A program made the position numbers and the translations under genes. Shown one piece after another: positions 8,991 to 19,450 of a stretch of DNA of 24,898 nt. The stretch's first letter is position 1; the number at the start of each line of letters is the position of its first letter. The stretch lies in IMG/VR virus record IMGVR_UViG_3300035698_002520, positions 1-24,898 of that record; one strand, 5' to 3'. Source of the stretch: a virus. The notes under the pieces were generated by a model that did not search any database, was not told the origin of the DNA, and was given only the letters and a program-made list of their open reading frames with translations.

Positions 8991-9101
8991 TAGCTCTTCT
9001 TCTTCTAACTCAAACTTAATCCTTCTCTTTTCTGATTCTGTTCTTTTCTTTTCGTGTTTCCACAATTCTGTGAACTCACTTTCATGTATTATTTGTTTCA
9101 T
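8964..9101 (-). CDS. Small charged helical protein (45 aa)
   Basis: A 45-codon frame starting MKQIIHESEFTELWKHEKKR and continuing with Glu/Arg-rich helix (TESEKRRIKFELEEEELLTI). The ATG overlaps the TGA of the methyltransferase frame by 4 nt, the usual coupling here. Likely a single amphipathic helix or coiled coil. Function unknown. Confidence 0.5.
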   Translation of the reverse strand: MKQIIHESEFTELWKHEKKRTESEKRRIKFELEEEELLTIYKEKC

Positions 9102-9842
9102 TTATTTAGACGTTCTTTTATTATATCAATATACTTCTGTTCTTTTTCTATCAAAATGTAGTTTCTGTTAAGGTTTTTACAGGCTACTCCAGTTGTTCCA
9201 CTACCAGCTGTAAAATCAAGGACTGTTTCATTTTCGTTAGTGTATGTTTTTATTAGATATTCCATTAGTGCTACTGGTTTTTGTGTTGGGTGTGGTGGGT
9301 TGTGTTCTGAATTAAACTTTAGTATTGTTTCGTGGAAGCCTGTATCCTTCTGAAAGTAATTTCCTTTATCGACACAGTGCATTAATTTACCTCCTTTATT
9401 ATTTCTACTGTTTTTTATTGGCTTTATTAATCTTTTAAGATTAAATAGATTATACGTTGGGAACTTATAATAAAAAACAGAAATGTTTTCGTGATATTTC
9501 ATTGGGTTTTTTCTACATAATGCAAAGTTTCCAGCTTTTGATTTTCTCCAAATCCAATCATACTTATAATTCTTAATATTACTCATTCTAAGAGCTGAAC
9601 TGAATGGCTCACTTCCAAACAATACTATTGCTCCGTTAGGTTTTATTATTCTGTTTAAATGTTGCCACATTTCATCAAAAGGTATTACTGTGTCCCATTT
9701 ACAAGCTGTTGTTCCGTTAATAAGGCGGGTCACAAATGACTGCATCAACAATAACACCTTCTAAGATGAGTTTATCCATCTCTTTTAAGCATTCACCGTT
9801 GATTAGTCTGCAACCCGCCAATTTTTCGTTAAAATTTTTCAT
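9098..9842 (-). pseudogene. Amino-methyltransferase (N6-adenine/N4-cytosine type) with 4-nt frameshift after DPPY
   Basis: The first frame, from ATG 9842, reads MKNFNEKLAGCRLINGECLK and reaches the catalytic motif VICDPPY, then a TAA at 9717-9719. The remaining enzyme lies in another frame: GTTACKWDTVIPFDEMW, GAIVLFGSEPFSSALRMS, NPPHPTQKPVALMEYLI and the AdoMet site VLDFTAGSGTTGVACKN. Removing the four bases TAAC at 9716-9719 joins DPPY directly to GTTACKWD, as in intact relatives. Motif order DPPY before the FTAGSGTT site is the beta class. The gene may be dead, or UAU-UAA-C may allow +1 slippage giving DPPYNGTT. The scar lies where the upstream remnant at 10352-10441 also breaks. Confidence 0.8.
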
Positions 9843-9871: not shown

Positions 9872-10324
9872 TTAATTCCACTCGACCTGTGAAATATCGT
9901 TTTTTGCTCTATTTTCAAACCAAGACAAGAACTGTAAATTATTTACTAATTTTGAGCCACCATTACTTTTAGCCTCGATATGGTCTAAAGATGGTTTTAT
10001 CCATTTATCACCAGTTTCTACCCACTTATCAAAATAATAATTAAATGCTTTGTCGTTATAAAATTTTTCTATATATTCGCAATATATTTCATTATTAAAC
10101 CCCTGATAATCTCTTTTTCTTGAAATGCTCTTATTAAGATATTTTAGTTTTTCTACATCTTCAAATTTCATTAACCAAGCCAAATCAACATCGTATTTCA
10201 AGTGAGCCTTCATATTTTTATAAAGACTTTCTTTTGGCATTTTTTTCCCCTTTGACCAAGTTGTCCTTCCTTTACAGGCACGACTTATATTGGTTCTATG
10301 TTGTTTTGTAAATTTTCTTTTCAT
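9872..10324 (-). CDS. HNH homing endonuclease-like protein with NUMOD3-like N-terminus
   Basis: A 150-aa protein. The N-terminus FTKQHRTNISRACKGRTTWS resembles NUMOD3 DNA-binding modules of phage homing endonucleases. The C-terminal catalytic part has LDHIEAKSNGGSKLVNNLQF and then WFENRAKND, which provide the HNH histidine, asparagines and metal-binding geometry. It would cut one or both strands at a specific site. The gene separates a truncated methyltransferase start from a second methyltransferase start, both broken at the DPP(Y) motif, so that motif is the likely insertion site. It is unlike the HNH protein at 17128-17550. Confidence 0.8.
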   Translation of the reverse strand: MKRKFTKQHRTNISRACKGRTTWSKGKKMPKESLYKNMKAHLKYDVDLAWLMKFEDVEKLKYLNKSISRKRDYQGFNNEIYCEYIEKFYNDKAFNYYFDKWVETGDKWIKPSLDHIEAKSNGGSKLVNNLQFLSWFENRAKNDISQVEWN

Positions 10325-10351: not shown

Positions 10352-10441
10352 TTATGCAACAGGAGGGTCACAAATTATTGCATCTATGCTTTCTGGTTCT
10401 ATGTCCATCATTTCTTCTAAACAATCTCCATATATAATCAT
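10352..10441 (-). pseudogene. Truncated 5' remnant of an amino-methyltransferase
   Basis: Twenty-nine codons: MIIYGDCLEEMMDIEPESID then AIICDPP, followed by two unrelated codons and TAA. GDCLEEM and IICDPP are the standard opening of beta-class phage methyltransferases, including catalytic motif IV. The frame ends right at the motif, and an HNH gene follows. Its sequence differs clearly from the second start at 9842 (GECLKEM, VICDPPY), so it is not a simple tandem duplication. Confidence 0.7.
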
Positions 10442-10498: not shown

Positions 10499-10777
10499 TT
10501 ATCTAACGTAGCAAGTTCGTTGCTTGTTAGAATACTTTGACTTTCTTCTACTGATTACTACTTCTTCTCCTGAAAGCCATTGTTTTGTTATTTTTCTATA
10601 CTCTTCTTGCGATAATCTTCTACCATAAGGGATTATCTTTTCGATTTCGTTATGACACATTTGACACAAGTATAATACACTTTCGTTTCTTCCGAAGAAT
10701 CTTTTTGGGTAAACGTGGTGACGAGTAAGTCTTTTTATTTTGCAACACTTACAACAGAAACCTGTCTTGCATGTCAT
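10499..10777 (-). CDS. HNH endonuclease
   Basis: A 92-aa compact HNH nuclease: N-terminal zinc knuckle CCKCCKIKRL, then TRHHVYPKRFFGRN with the catalytic His pair, then LCQMCHNEIEK supplying the second cysteine pair and final His. A basic C-terminal tail (ISRRKSKYSNKQR) could hold DNA. It has a strong Shine-Dalgarno site (AGGAGG, 7 nt before ATG), rare in this genome, and a 4-nt overlap with the preceding small gene. It may be a homing nuclease or serve packaging/recombination; I cannot tell. Confidence 0.85.
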   Translation of the reverse strand: MTCKTGFCCKCCKIKRLTRHHVYPKRFFGRNESVLYLCQMCHNEIEKIIPYGRRLSQEEYRKITKQWLSGEEVVISRRKSKYSNKQRTCYVR

Positions 10778-14048: not shown

Positions 14049-14534
14049 TTAATCTCTTAACTCCTCCAAATTTATTAAATCTCTTAAAACTTCATGCGCA
14101 TTTTTTAACCATACACCTTCTTCATTAAGCAAATCTTCGTGAATTTTATTGTGACATTTTTCACAAAGAGGAACTAAATCTTTGTCTTCTTCTTCTCCCT
14201 TATTATCGTAGCAACAATGGTGTAGAACATAAGAACCATTACCGCAACTAAAACATATTTTTTTATGTGTTTTATAGTATTCAATTTTCCTTCTTTTCCA
14301 ATAACCAGTTCTTAGATATTTATCATATTTCATCCATTTTAATTCTGCAACAGTTGGCTCTTTAACATCTTTAATTTCTCCGTTGTATTTCTTAACTTTC
14401 CTATTCCACGTTTTACTACCTAACTTACCTTTATTACATTTGCATTTTAAGCAATATAACATTGTACCATTTTTCTGTTCTCTTAATTCTAGTAGCTCAT
14501 CGCAAATTGGACATCTATTTAATATTCTTGGCAT
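14049..14534 (-). CDS. HNH endonuclease with N-terminal zinc ribbon
   Basis: A 161-aa protein with two parts. Residues 1-40 hold RCPICDELLE and YCLKCKCNKG, a zinc ribbon. Residues 90-140 are an HNH nuclease: ICFSCGNGSYVLHHCCYDNK, then DLVPLCEKCHNKIHEDLL with the catalytic His residues and second cysteine pair. It lies between the replication initiator-like gene and ninG. It could be a homing nuclease or a replication/recombination nuclease. Neighbouring genes look uninterrupted, unlike the two methyltransferase loci. Confidence 0.8.
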   Translation of the reverse strand: MPRILNRCPICDELLELREQKNGTMLYCLKCKCNKGKLGSKTWNRKVKKYNGEIKDVKEPTVAELKWMKYDKYLRTGYWKRRKIEYYKTHKKICFSCGNGSYVLHHCCYDNKGEEEDKDLVPLCEKCHNKIHEDLLNEEGVWLKNAHEVLRDLINLEELRD

Positions 14535-15894: not shown

Positions 15895-16038
15895 TTATGT
15901 TGTATAATAATTATCTTTTGATTTAAGTCTTGCTTCTGTATAGTTATAGCAAGGGCAGTTCTTGTTATGTATAACTGACCTGTAAGGGAATTTATGTTTT
16001 AGTATTAGCTCATGATATGAGCAGGTGCATTTTTTCAT
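15895..16038 (-). CDS. Small Cys/His protein (47 aa), possible zinc binder
   Basis: A 47-codon frame MKKCTCSYHELILKHKFPYR with a second pair CPC near residue 30. The CxC ... CxC spacing with a nearby His fits a small metal-binding fold. The ATG overlaps the TGA of the cytosine methyltransferase by 4 nt (ATGA), so it is coupled to that gene. Function unknown. Confidence 0.55.
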   Translation of the reverse strand: MKKCTCSYHELILKHKFPYRSVIHNKNCPCYNYTEARLKSKDNYYTT

Positions 16039-17126
16039 AATAGTTTTAACATTATTTCTTTAATTACATTTACGGTAACAGCATTTCCCGCCATTTTATA
16101 GCGGGCAGAATCAGAAATTGCAACCACATCTCCGTTTTCGTTAACTCCCTCTTTAGTCCAGTCATCTGGAAACCCTTGTAGACGTTCACATTCTTTTGGG
16201 GTTAATCTACGGATCTTAGCATCTTGCAAGGTGTGTTGTTGCATCCCAGTATCAATTGTTTGGGCTACACCCTTACCAACTCTACCTCGTCTAGTCTTTG
16301 AGTTAGGAACTGAAAGGTTTATTGAATCACCTTCTTCTGCTATTGCATATCCTTTCTTTGTTGCTTCTTTGACTGCGTACAATCCAGTCTTTGCTCCTTG
16401 CCCTCCTGCTTGACTTGCCTGAGTCGTAGATAATCCATCTGTAGCATAAACCCTGTTTCCTTGTCCGCCTCCTATAATTTGTTTAAGAGTTTTTGGGTTG
16501 CCTCCTCCGATAGGAAATACTTCTGGACGACTTGTTCCTCTAAGATGTCCGACAATGAACACTCTTTCCCTGTTTTGTGGAACACCGAAATTTTTGCTGT
16601 TAAGCACTTGCCATTGACAGTCATACCCCAATTCATCAATTTCGGTAATGATAGTTCTAAAAGTTCTACCTTTGTCGTGAGATAATAATCCTTTGACATT
16701 CTCAAGAAGGATAAGACGTGGTTGTTTTTGTTTAATAATCCTGCAGATTTCAAAGAAGAGTGTACCGCGGGTATCCATGAACCCTTTTCTTTTTCCAGCG
16801 ATTGAAAAACTCTGGCAAGGGAATCCGCCCACGAGGAGGTCAAAATCTGGTAATTCTTTTTCATTGATTTTTGTGATGTCTCCATAGTTTTTGTGGTTAA
16901 AGTGTTTGTTATAGACTTGGATGGCGTATTTGTCGATTTCACTAAAGCCAATACAGGTATTTGTCCTCCCCCTTGCCCCATCGCCTGTGTTAGACAAGGA
17001 CTGATGTTGTCCGTTCTTGGTGTTTGGTGTTTCTGGAGTCCTCCCCATATTATATAGTTCTTCATAGGCTTGTTGAATCCCTAGGGTAAAACCTCCCACT
17101 CCACTAAATAAATCTAGATACTTCAT
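16035..17126 (-). CDS. dcm: C5 cytosine DNA methyltransferase
   Basis: A 363-aa enzyme that methylates carbon 5 of cytosine using AdoMet, probably shielding phage DNA from restriction. Motifs are all present: I DLFSGVGGF (5-13), IV GGFPCQSFS with nucleophile Cys104, VI LENVKG (141-146), VIII QNRERVFIVG (184-193), IX RRLTPKECERLQGFP (about 308-322) and X AGNAV. The variable region 200-305 would set the target site. Residues 24-58 are a polar insert between motifs I and II. The gene is visibly less AT-rich than its neighbours. Its first 36 bases re-encode, with other codons, the start left behind at 17603-17641. Confidence 0.95.
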   Translation of the reverse strand: MKYLDLFSGVGGFTLGIQQAYEELYNMGRTPETPNTKNGQHQSLSNTGDGARGRTNTCIGFSEIDKYAIQVYNKHFNHKNYGDITKINEKELPDFDLLVGGFPCQSFSIAGKRKGFMDTRGTLFFEICRIIKQKQPRLILLENVKGLLSHDKGRTFRTIITEIDELGYDCQWQVLNSKNFGVPQNRERVFIVGHLRGTSRPEVFPIGGGNPKTLKQIIGGGQGNRVYATDGLSTTQASQAGGQGAKTGLYAVKEATKKGYAIAEEGDSINLSVPNSKTRRGRVGKGVAQTIDTGMQQHTLQDAKIRRLTPKECERLQGFPDDWTKEGVNENGDVVAISDSARYKMAGNAVTVNVIKEIMLKLL

Positions 17127-17605
17127 ATTATTTCCCCTTAGTTATATTATTAATTATATTATCATTTTTCCAATGACACGATTGGCACATTCTTTTATAG
17201 TCATTGGTATCTTCATATTTACCAGTCATATTTGCCCAATGGTATCTCTTTTTTTTATCTGTAGTTCCACAAATCTCACACTTCTTCGGCATACCTCTTT
17301 TTTTATATACCCGATAATGCAGTGCTGAATACCCTGCCTTGTCACCTCTCCAACAAGGATTGTTTTCTCCGTCTTGATTGTTATTTTTTGGTACCCTTGT
17401 TTTTATTTTCAAATCTCTCATCCATCTCCAAATTATTTTCTGAGTAACCCTATAATGTATTGCTAACTGGTTTTGTGTTAGTCCACTATTGTAAAGTTTT
17501 TTTATTTCCACTTTTTTTGGTAGAGGTGTTTTTGTGTACATGTTTGTCATAGATATAAATTTAATTATTATATCTATATTCTAGCAAACCCACATATCCT
17601 TGTCA
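17091..17605 (-). mobile_element. Putative HNH element that replaces the 5' end of the methyltransferase gene
   Basis: The segment runs from the break after motif I in the truncated start (GGAGGT at 17606) to the same codon in the intact gene (GGAGGT at 17091). It contains a promoter starting at the very border, an HNH gene, and a 36-base replacement start coding for MKYLDLFSGVGG. Because the replacement is in frame, the methyltransferase stays intact after insertion. Borders are inferred from the repeated coding motif; no terminal repeats or target duplication are evident beyond it. Confidence 0.65.
17128..17550 (-). CDS. HNH endonuclease with helix-turn-helix N-terminus
   Basis: A 140-aa protein. 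Residues 10-45 form a helix-turn-helix (IKKLYNSGLTQNQLAIHYRV, then TQKIIWRWMRDLKI). The C-terminus is the phage 'WAN'-type HNH: NPCWRGDKAGYSALHYRV, KKCEICGTTDKK, YHWANMTGKY and RMCQSCHWKND, with the cysteines binding zinc and the YHWAN His/Asn catalytic. Its stop lies one base before the methyltransferase ATG. It separates a motif-I-truncated methyltransferase start from the intact gene and has its own strong promoter, so a homing nuclease aimed at that gene is likely. Confidence 0.85.
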   Translation of the reverse strand: MTNMYTKTPLPKKVEIKKLYNSGLTQNQLAIHYRVTQKIIWRWMRDLKIKTRVPKNNNQDGENNPCWRGDKAGYSALHYRVYKKRGMPKKCEICGTTDKKKRYHWANMTGKYEDTNDYKRMCQSCHWKNDNIINNITKGK

Positions 17606-17606
17606 A
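17578..17606 (-). promoter_or_regulatory. Sigma-70 promoter of HNH-dcm unit
   Basis: Minus strand TTGACA (17601-17606), 17-nt spacer, TAGAAT (17578-17583): 11 of 12 consensus bases. The first T of the -35 is the last base of the motif-I codon of the broken methyltransferase start, so the promoter begins exactly at the insertion border. Expected start near 17571, 20 nt ahead of the HNH ATG. Confidence 0.8.
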
Positions 17607-17641
17607 CCTCCGATACCAGAGAATAATGATAAGTATTTCAT
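17603..17641 (-). pseudogene. Truncated start of the original C5 methyltransferase gene
   Basis: Twelve codons, MKYLSLFSGIGG, then TGA. SLFSGIGG is the canonical AdoMet-binding motif I of C5 methyltransferases. The ATG overlaps the TGA of the lytic transglycosylase by 4 nt, the standard coupling in this genome, which marks it as the native start of the ancestral gene rather than a chance match. It ends precisely where the HNH segment begins. Confidence 0.8.
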
Positions 17642-18144
17642 AAACAATTCTTAGTGTAGCCATACCAAGCTTCATAATTTCCGTCATGTAGACGTTTATT
17701 AATCACCCAGTACGTAGCTGTTTTATAATTATATCTATCTTCTAAAGAGATAGTTTCTTTGTGGACACTATTTATCATAAATAATCCTGAATCAATAGTT
17801 CCGTTAGTGTTCCAATTATTAGCCCAGTTATTCCAGTTAGATTCATTCTTAATAAGACAATCTATATCTTTAAAGTCAAGTCCTGCTTGTTCGACTGTTG
17901 TTTTAATCCACTCTCTCATTGTAGGTTCTTCTAACTCTACTGCTCTAGCAACCTTTACAGTAGCTAAGTCATGGCTGAATATTGCCATGTAATCAAAGTA
18001 TGCTTCTGCTGTTTTATAACCTGATGCTACTATGAACCAGATTATTAGAACTATACCTAAGAATTGTGTGAACAATCGTAATTGATAAATAGGGGATTGT
18101 AATTTGGCGATTTTTTGTTTTAGCGATTTTTTATTTTTGCTCAT
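17638..18144 (-). CDS. Membrane-anchored lytic transglycosylase (SLT/goose-lysozyme-like)
   Basis: A 168-aa protein. An N-terminal basic segment is followed by a membrane span (LGIVLIIWFIVASG, about 29-42). The C-terminal part has the transglycosylase signature CLIKNESNWNNWANN with catalytic Glu101, then DSGLFMINSVHKE (the SxGLxQ-type motif) and the helical NYEAWYGYTKNC. It would cleave peptidoglycan glycan strands, for DNA entry or lysis. The basic N-terminus before the span predicts an outward-facing catalytic domain. Its stop is coupled to the remnant methyltransferase start. Confidence 0.8.
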   Translation of the reverse strand: MSKNKKSLKQKIAKLQSPIYQLRLFTQFLGIVLIIWFIVASGYKTAEAYFDYMAIFSHDLATVKVARAVELEEPTMREWIKTTVEQAGLDFKDIDCLIKNESNWNNWANNWNTNGTIDSGLFMINSVHKETISLEDRYNYKTATYWVINKRLHDGNYEAWYGYTKNCL

Positions 18145-19141: not shown

Positions 19142-19450
19142 TTAAATATTTTTTAGCCCATGTTTTATTACATAATCTCTAAGATTAGTCGGCATACGAT
19201 AATTAAAACTAAGGAATTTACTTTTTATTTTTGGTAATCTTTTATATTTTCCTCTATTTCCGTGTATAGCTCTATGACAAGCTAAACAAATTATTGCAAA
19301 ATTACTTATATCACCATTGTGCTTATTAAAATCTACATGATGAGCAACCATATATTGAAAAGTTCTATATCTATCACAATTTTCACATATACCTTTATTT
19401 TCAATATATAAAAATATTTTTTCCTCTTTTTTTAAATTTATTCTTTTCAT
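19142..19450 (-). CDS. HNH endonuclease
   Basis: A 102-aa HNH nuclease: knuckle ICENCDRYRT, catalytic VAHHVDFNKHNGDISNFAII and CLACHRAIHG, then a basic tail (NRGKYKRLPKIKSKFLSF). The layout is that of free-standing phage HNH proteins. It starts one base after the ribbon-helix-helix gene's stop region and sits early in the unit that begins at the 19643-19670 promoter. No broken gene flanks it. Confidence 0.85.
   Translation of the reverse strand: MKRINLKKEEKIFLYIENKGICENCDRYRTFQYMVAHHVDFNKHNGDISNFAIICLACHRAIHGNRGKYKRLPKIKSKFLSFNYRMPTNLRDYVIKHGLKNI

Follow-up and report, generated by a model that had tools for sequence, protein, structure and literature searches.

Introduction

Mobile endonuclease ORFs are known from the mitochondrial genes atp6, atp9, cox2, and nad3 of Allomyces macrogynus and Glomus (PMC3630166). 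In phage T4, mobA, mobE, and the segs are free-standing, intron-less endonuclease genes, of which the mob group belongs to the HNH type, and they are sometimes located in critical regions of enzyme genes (PMC2988022). T4 gene 60 further contains a 50-nt translational bypass beside a homing endonuclease, and the bypassed insert was proposed to protect against cutting (PMC5009743).

Here we analyzed a 24.9 kb virus record (24,898 nt, IMGVR_UViG_3300035698_002520), the whole of which is called the window, in which an HNH-type gene lies at the start of a C5 cytosine methyltransferase gene. As in the fungal elements (PMC3630166), an endonuclease-type ORF is placed between a displaced native end and a substitute end that encodes nearly the same protein with divergent codons, and the displaced end persists beyond the endonuclease gene (identical in the window to the start of an uninterrupted relative, L036, with both copies present in 23 loci). 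The fungal elements, however, replace the C-terminal (3′) end, whereas the phage element replaces the 5′ end; it also differs in being of HNH type, in using its own promoter or a borrowed ribosome site, and in occupying more than one unrelated target gene. Although it operates in a like manner, the phage element does not belong to the fungal mitochondrial group, and the analogy drawn in a first-pass annotation of this DNA is documented in the literature, for 3′ ends (PMC3630166). The likeness to the T4 free-standing enzymes is that an intron-less phage endonuclease gene is inserted in a critical enzyme region; T4 insertions split the gene into separate polypeptides, whereas the gene is here restored by a second 5′ end (PMC2988022). 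No published 5′-replacing version was found in the literature searched, most subscription journals being outside its scope. Besides splicing out and splitting the gene, such start replacement would give selfish nuclease genes a third means of persisting within an essential motif of their host gene.

Anatomy of the Window Locus

All features of the locus are on the minus strand. The upstream gene (17638–18144) is lysozyme/transglycosylase-like by sequence motifs only, so that its previous label, lytic transglycosylase, is backed by these motifs without any Pfam match. Its stop overlaps the ATG of a 12-codon stub in the sequence ATGA (17641–17638), and the stub (17603–17641), which encodes the native methyltransferase start MKYLSLFSGIGG followed by a stop, reads ATG AAA TAC TTA TCA TTA TTC TCT GGT ATC GGA GGT TGA. 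All elements of the coupled start, broken off at motif I, that the first-pass annotation had described are thus present. The promoter that it had placed at the break was likewise recovered as TTGACA-17-TAGAAT (17578–17606), which matches 11 of the 12 sigma-70 consensus positions and is the top-scoring site of the kilobase. The first hexamer (17606–17601) begins within the final stub codon, and the second (17583–17578) follows a 17-base spacer and is preceded by TG; an alignable site occurs at the same place in the relative L095.

Behind this promoter-like site lies a gene for a 140-residue protein with an HTH and an HNH-type part, a predicted homing nuclease (17128–17550), for which no cleavage data exist. 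The earlier HNH label is carried by a match to phrog_8446 (E = 3 × 10⁻¹⁶), which PHROG calls an HNH endonuclease and which matches 30 of 30 relatives, together with a weak structural resemblance to an HNH nickase, but it is not carried by Pfam, since no Pfam HNH model matches the protein. Nuclease activity is for this reason only inferred. In the predicted structure (model pLDDT of 81), residues 5–53 form a clear N-terminal helix-turn-helix fold (Z up to 5.9), and the C-terminal residues 73–136 align weakly to the nickase 4h9d of Geobacter metallireducens (Z of 5.1 over 64 residues). It counts against an HNH homing element that the His of a classical HNH motif is missing from its customary position. 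A Foldseek search of the PDB gave nothing at E < 0.001.

The nuclease gene is followed by a recoded second methyltransferase start, MKYLDLFSGVGG (17091–17126), which opens an intact C5 cytosine methyltransferase of 363 residues (16035–17126; PF00145, E = 6 × 10⁻⁸⁸ over residues 1–361). Stub and second start share 24 of their 36 bases, which bears out the previous remark that they encode the same motif with many different codons. HNH genes are frequent in phage introns, and the end of the stub is in frame with the body, which could suggest that a group I or other intron carrying the HNH gene is spliced out to join stub and body. This explanation is scarcely tenable, as the non-coding bases amount to only about 100, the second start alone completes the gene, and an occupied relative (phage Lton, below) has no stub at all. 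An Rfam scan of the window at gathering scores also gave no match, so that no intron ribozyme core was found.

Empty and Occupied Alleles

Scans of close relatives with the upstream gene or the HNH protein alone found nothing, and only profile searches succeeded; the locus set consists of their results together with two Gordonia phages and a Leucobacter contig, and positions were judged by manual reading of the translations. Among 80 related methyltransferase loci, the close uninterrupted relatives read M-[KR]-Y-[LF]-S-x-F-[ST]-G-[IVY]-G-G-F-E. The first-pass annotation had held that an empty site, if one existed, should open with the stub and continue in frame into the enzyme, and L036 is exactly such a gene: it opens with the identical 36 bases (36/36), followed by GGTTTCGAG, and runs in frame into GFELG. 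A blastn comparison of the stub and its flank with this gene gave 39 of 40 bases (E = 6 × 10⁻¹³), and the methyltransferase bodies of the window and L036 are 79% identical over 444 bases. Judged by this identity, the 36-base stub is the true old start of the window methyltransferase. The arrangement is not due to chance, because of this match to an uninterrupted gene and because it recurs in other phages. A stub without an HNH gene, which would have spoken against the insertion, was not found in any of the 80 methyltransferase loci.

The codons of the second start differ from those of its uninterrupted homologues, with which the comparison had also been proposed. It has on average 23.8 of 36 bases, and at most 28, in common with 38 uninterrupted starts, and it has D at position 5 and T at position 14, as in the element-bearing loci L095/L010 and L124, whereas close uninterrupted relatives have S and E at these positions. 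The second start therefore looks like a part of the element and not of the recipient. In three loci without an HNH gene (L026–L028), the methyltransferase opens with MKYFDAFSGVGGFALGIQQAY, which resembles an element-type second start (D5, GTG); these genes could, by that resemblance, be element remnants from which the nuclease was lost. Two further actinophage C5 methyltransferases without an HNH gene, of Rhodococcus phage ReT1v-1 (L183) and Gordonia phage Geodirt (L184), have an annotated start well within the gene or are annotated as pieces, and may represent further breaks or annotation problems.

Occupied and empty alleles of one locus thus exist in the window and L036, and a second pair was identified between isolated Gordonia phages, CheeseTouch with an uninterrupted gene and Lton with the HNH gene. 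Where CheeseTouch has 25 bases, Lton has 492. The upstream sequences match at 86% over 161 bases up to the start codon, where homology breaks (L093:3946/L182:1475), and they match again at 94% over 208 bases from L093:4439/L182:1501, behind which the first 58 residues of the protein are identical. When many other HNH-free actinophage genes were aligned to the Gudmit gene, the alignments started exactly at this resumption base. Phage genomes are mosaic, and the middle of the Lton methyltransferase was likewise exchanged relative to CheeseTouch; it can hence be asked whether illegitimate or homologous recombination simply brought in a module of HNH and methyltransferase genes, leaving the old start behind, with the HNH protein inactive in its own spread. 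We regard this as unlikely, one reason being that the replacement in Lton affects no more than 25 native bases, on either side of which the two phage sequences match.

Recurrence and Target Genes

In about 50 distinct phage loci, the HNH gene sits right at the motif I codons of a C5 methyltransferase gene, and at least 23 of them keep both copies of the motif. Nearest to the window is L010/L095, which has the same gene order, an HNH protein 57% identical and a methyltransferase segment 67% identical to those of the window, and the alignable promoter at the break. Together with L122/L031 and L124, in which the stub is fused in frame to the HNH gene, it belongs to the same enzyme clade as the window and shares its architecture. 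On the other side, and counting against the homing element proposed below, some loci have no stub (Lton, Gudmit), and some have no downstream methyltransferase. Within the Leucobacter order, only 1 of 396 genomes gave a match, which is the genome that seeded the search, indicating that the element family is phage-borne. From the arrangement of these loci, expression of the HNH gene seems to be achieved by one of three routes: its own promoter right behind GGNGG (the window, L095, L121, L129, L133), GGNGG acting as ribosome site of an ATG that follows after a few bases (L097, L130, L100), or in-frame fusion with the stub (L122, L124, L114).

The same HNH family and clade was also found at the 5′ end of YqaJ recombinase genes, again at G-x-G-G codons and with the order of stub, HNH gene, and second start kept. 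The clearest case is L156, in which RRTGIGG is followed by the HNH gene and then RRSGVGGSDVAAILG, giving the stub and second-start motifs GIGG and GVGGSDVAAILG. In 89% of bootstrap trees, a branch separates the YqaJ-associated members from the rest; these loci are L139, L156, L166, L170, and near-copies of L139. The target is therefore codons of the Gly-x-Gly-Gly kind rather than one gene. Breakage of about 50 loci at the same motif, and of YqaJ genes by one HNH clade as well, speaks further against a mere exchange of mosaic modules.

The nuclease and methyltransferase genes are adjacent and nearly overlap, as would be anticipated if they were a restriction enzyme and its protecting C5 methyltransferase, with the stub an accident. 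A nuclease beside an intact protective methyltransferase is indeed found in the window but not across the family, where many members adjoin out-of-frame methyltransferases, YqaJ genes, or none, and the stub recurs in more than 20 loci. A restriction-modification pair is accordingly disfavored as a very improbable account. Start replacement by the element may instead explain many puzzling phage annotations of an HNH gene next to a broken methyltransferase.

Recoding of the Core Codons

The codons of the stub and the second start were compared for 23 pairs. Codons −5 to −1 were identical in 42%, against 27% when the second starts were permuted among loci. Within the F-S-G-X core, identity was seen for just 16 of 85 codons, against 31.4 expected from per-locus codon usage, and the G codon was identical in 1 of 23 pairs against 6.1 expected (permutation, 0.0075), the divergence being strongest at the S and G codons. 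This focused divergence is the pattern expected if the nuclease reads the F-S-G-X codons, as for escape from self-cutting, where both the cutting and the resistance to it are inferences. It should be mentioned against this idea that recoding for immunity alone would need few base changes, yet several codons differ. Concentration of the difference on the core codons is also not what the mosaic exchange of modules would suggest.

The occurrence in about 50 loci, the pairs of empty and occupied alleles, and the divergence focused on the S and G codons lead us to consider it quite probable that a homing-type HNH element has here replaced the 5′ end of the gene that it occupies. The anatomy of the locus, its recurrence, the existence of empty and occupied alleles, and the site-focused codon divergence are direct observations, while cutting, transfer by repair, and immunity are inferred. 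The element, which would be free-standing, sits at the codons of motif I (F-S-G-I-G-G) in a C5 methyltransferase gene of a phage. Its probable mode of spread is cleavage of the uninterrupted gene at that motif, followed by repair in which the homologous sequence on either side served to copy the element in. With it would come a promoter and, downstream of the nuclease gene, a full substitute for the 5′ end that has a new ribosome site and uses other codons. Owing to this replacement end the host enzyme would survive, and the element's own copy would presumably no longer be a site recognized by the nuclease. The old start would stay upstream as the 12-codon stub, which in some relatives seems to have been adopted as the start of the nuclease gene. 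The earlier proposal that an element landed after motif I bringing a replacement 5′ end is supported by L036, by Lton and CheeseTouch, and by the recurrence. Such elements provide a natural test of self-protection against a nuclease encoded by the same DNA.

Out-of-Frame Second Starts

In approximately half of the loci, the second start is out of frame with the body by 4–6 extra bases or by 1, usually with a stop. The first type, class B, has 4–6 extra bases directly after codon X of F-S-G-X-G-G. With the extra bases set between slashes, the junction is GGC TAT/TGAAC/GGC GGA in Gudmit and likewise in Lton and L111, GGC ATT/TAGTT/GGC GGC in L103 and L120, GTC/TAGGTC/GGT in L101, and TAT/TAAC/GGC in L106. 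Loci with FSG-I/Y followed by 4–6 extra bases are L092, L093, L096, L100, L103, L105, L106, L111, L120, L123, L125, L132, L160, L171, and L179. After merging of near relatives into 19 class B lineages, a stop stands right after X in 12, for which a chance of 3 in 64 gives P of about 4 × 10⁻¹², not corrected for relatedness; TGA, TAA, and TAG are swapped among relatives. The codon before X is GGC in 17 of 19 lineages, and in 13 of 19 the codon before GG is compatible at its second base with the anticodon of X, which exceeds chance. The latter codon would be the landing place of a hopping tRNA, with translation across the gap not demonstrated. Class C (L098, L117, L119, L131, L162, L198, L217, L230) has a single additional base that in nearly every case follows the Phe codon of GGF (TTT-C or TTT-T), with the variants TTT TGA C in L117 and CTT TGA in L119, and these junctions are possible +1 slip sites.

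In T4 gene 60, a stop codon directly follows the take-off codon. Most class B relatives similarly have a stop directly after X, and the insert lies near a predicted homing endonuclease gene. The phage inserts differ from gene 60 in being only 4–6 bases (or 1) long, in lying in methyltransferase catalytic motifs, and in occurring in many lineages, with no demonstration of translation across them.

Nearly all enzyme bodies of the out-of-frame loci are complete to the last motif. In the HNH tree, class B accounts for at least five changes and class C for at least four, on well-supported branches. The second start is conserved as protein, with synonymous changes, in L105, L160, L179, and L111, and the bodies are under purifying selection (ω of approximately 0.15–0.6), with a divergence similar to that of the nuclease genes in some pairs. 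Synonymous sites were often saturated in this estimate, and repeated transfer to fresh genes is not excluded. RNA folding around class B and C junctions gave some z-scores near −2 but no common structure, so that no clear stimulator is evident there. Ordinary re-initiation was rejected as a general answer for class B, ten loci having no ATG, GTG, or TTG in the body frame before GG. The alternative N-terminal frame annotated for Lton and Gudmit is also unlikely in general, because it is closed, with no conventional start, in many relatives and because the zero frame is conserved with synonymous changes.

Either a programmed hop or frameshift yields the out-of-frame enzymes, or these genes are dead yet always freshly invaded. 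We can only tentatively raise the possibility, which remains doubtful, that about half of the elements escape self-cutting by 4–6 (or 1) extra bases in the catalytic motif instead of synonymous codons, the enzyme still being made because ribosomes get past the insert in a programmed manner, by a short hop or a +1 frameshift. Such very short bypasses, tied to homing elements, would then form a widespread family that spans two or more HNH families as well as two types of methyltransferase, one being the N6 enzyme of the window described below (DPPY, TAAC, GTTACKWD). Should the out-of-frame copies really be translated, they would provide many ribosomal bypass sites of very small size and tie recoding directly to nuclease escape, an idea so far derived mainly from T4 gene 60.

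A Second Case in the Window

A comparable arrangement was observed elsewhere in the window, also on the minus strand, for an N6/N4 methyltransferase. Its start stub, MIIYGDCLEE...IICDPP (10355–10441), is broken at DPP and is followed by an HNH/NUMOD3-like gene of a different family (9872–10324; 150 residues), which matches endonuclease VII/HNH PHROGs and, weakly, NUMOD3. The second start (9717–9842) ends in VICDPPY and an in-frame TAA, and the methyltransferase body, GTTACKWD... (9098–9715; PF01555, E = 5 × 10⁻³⁰, ORF 9101–9757), lies in a different frame. The extra bases, TAT/TAAC/GGA, resemble those of the class B locus L106, and the body is intact. Relatives of this second HNH protein were found in Vibrio phage VnaP, behind a truncated N6-methyltransferase start, and in Pseudoalteromonas phage H101, behind a shorter and less clear start, both with TATAAT at the break. 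Start replacement at a catalytic motif is thus probably not confined to one nuclease family. Three more small HNH-like ORFs are present on the minus strand (19142–19450, 14049–14534, and 10499–10777), and candidate endonuclease genes are plentiful in this 25 kb phage.
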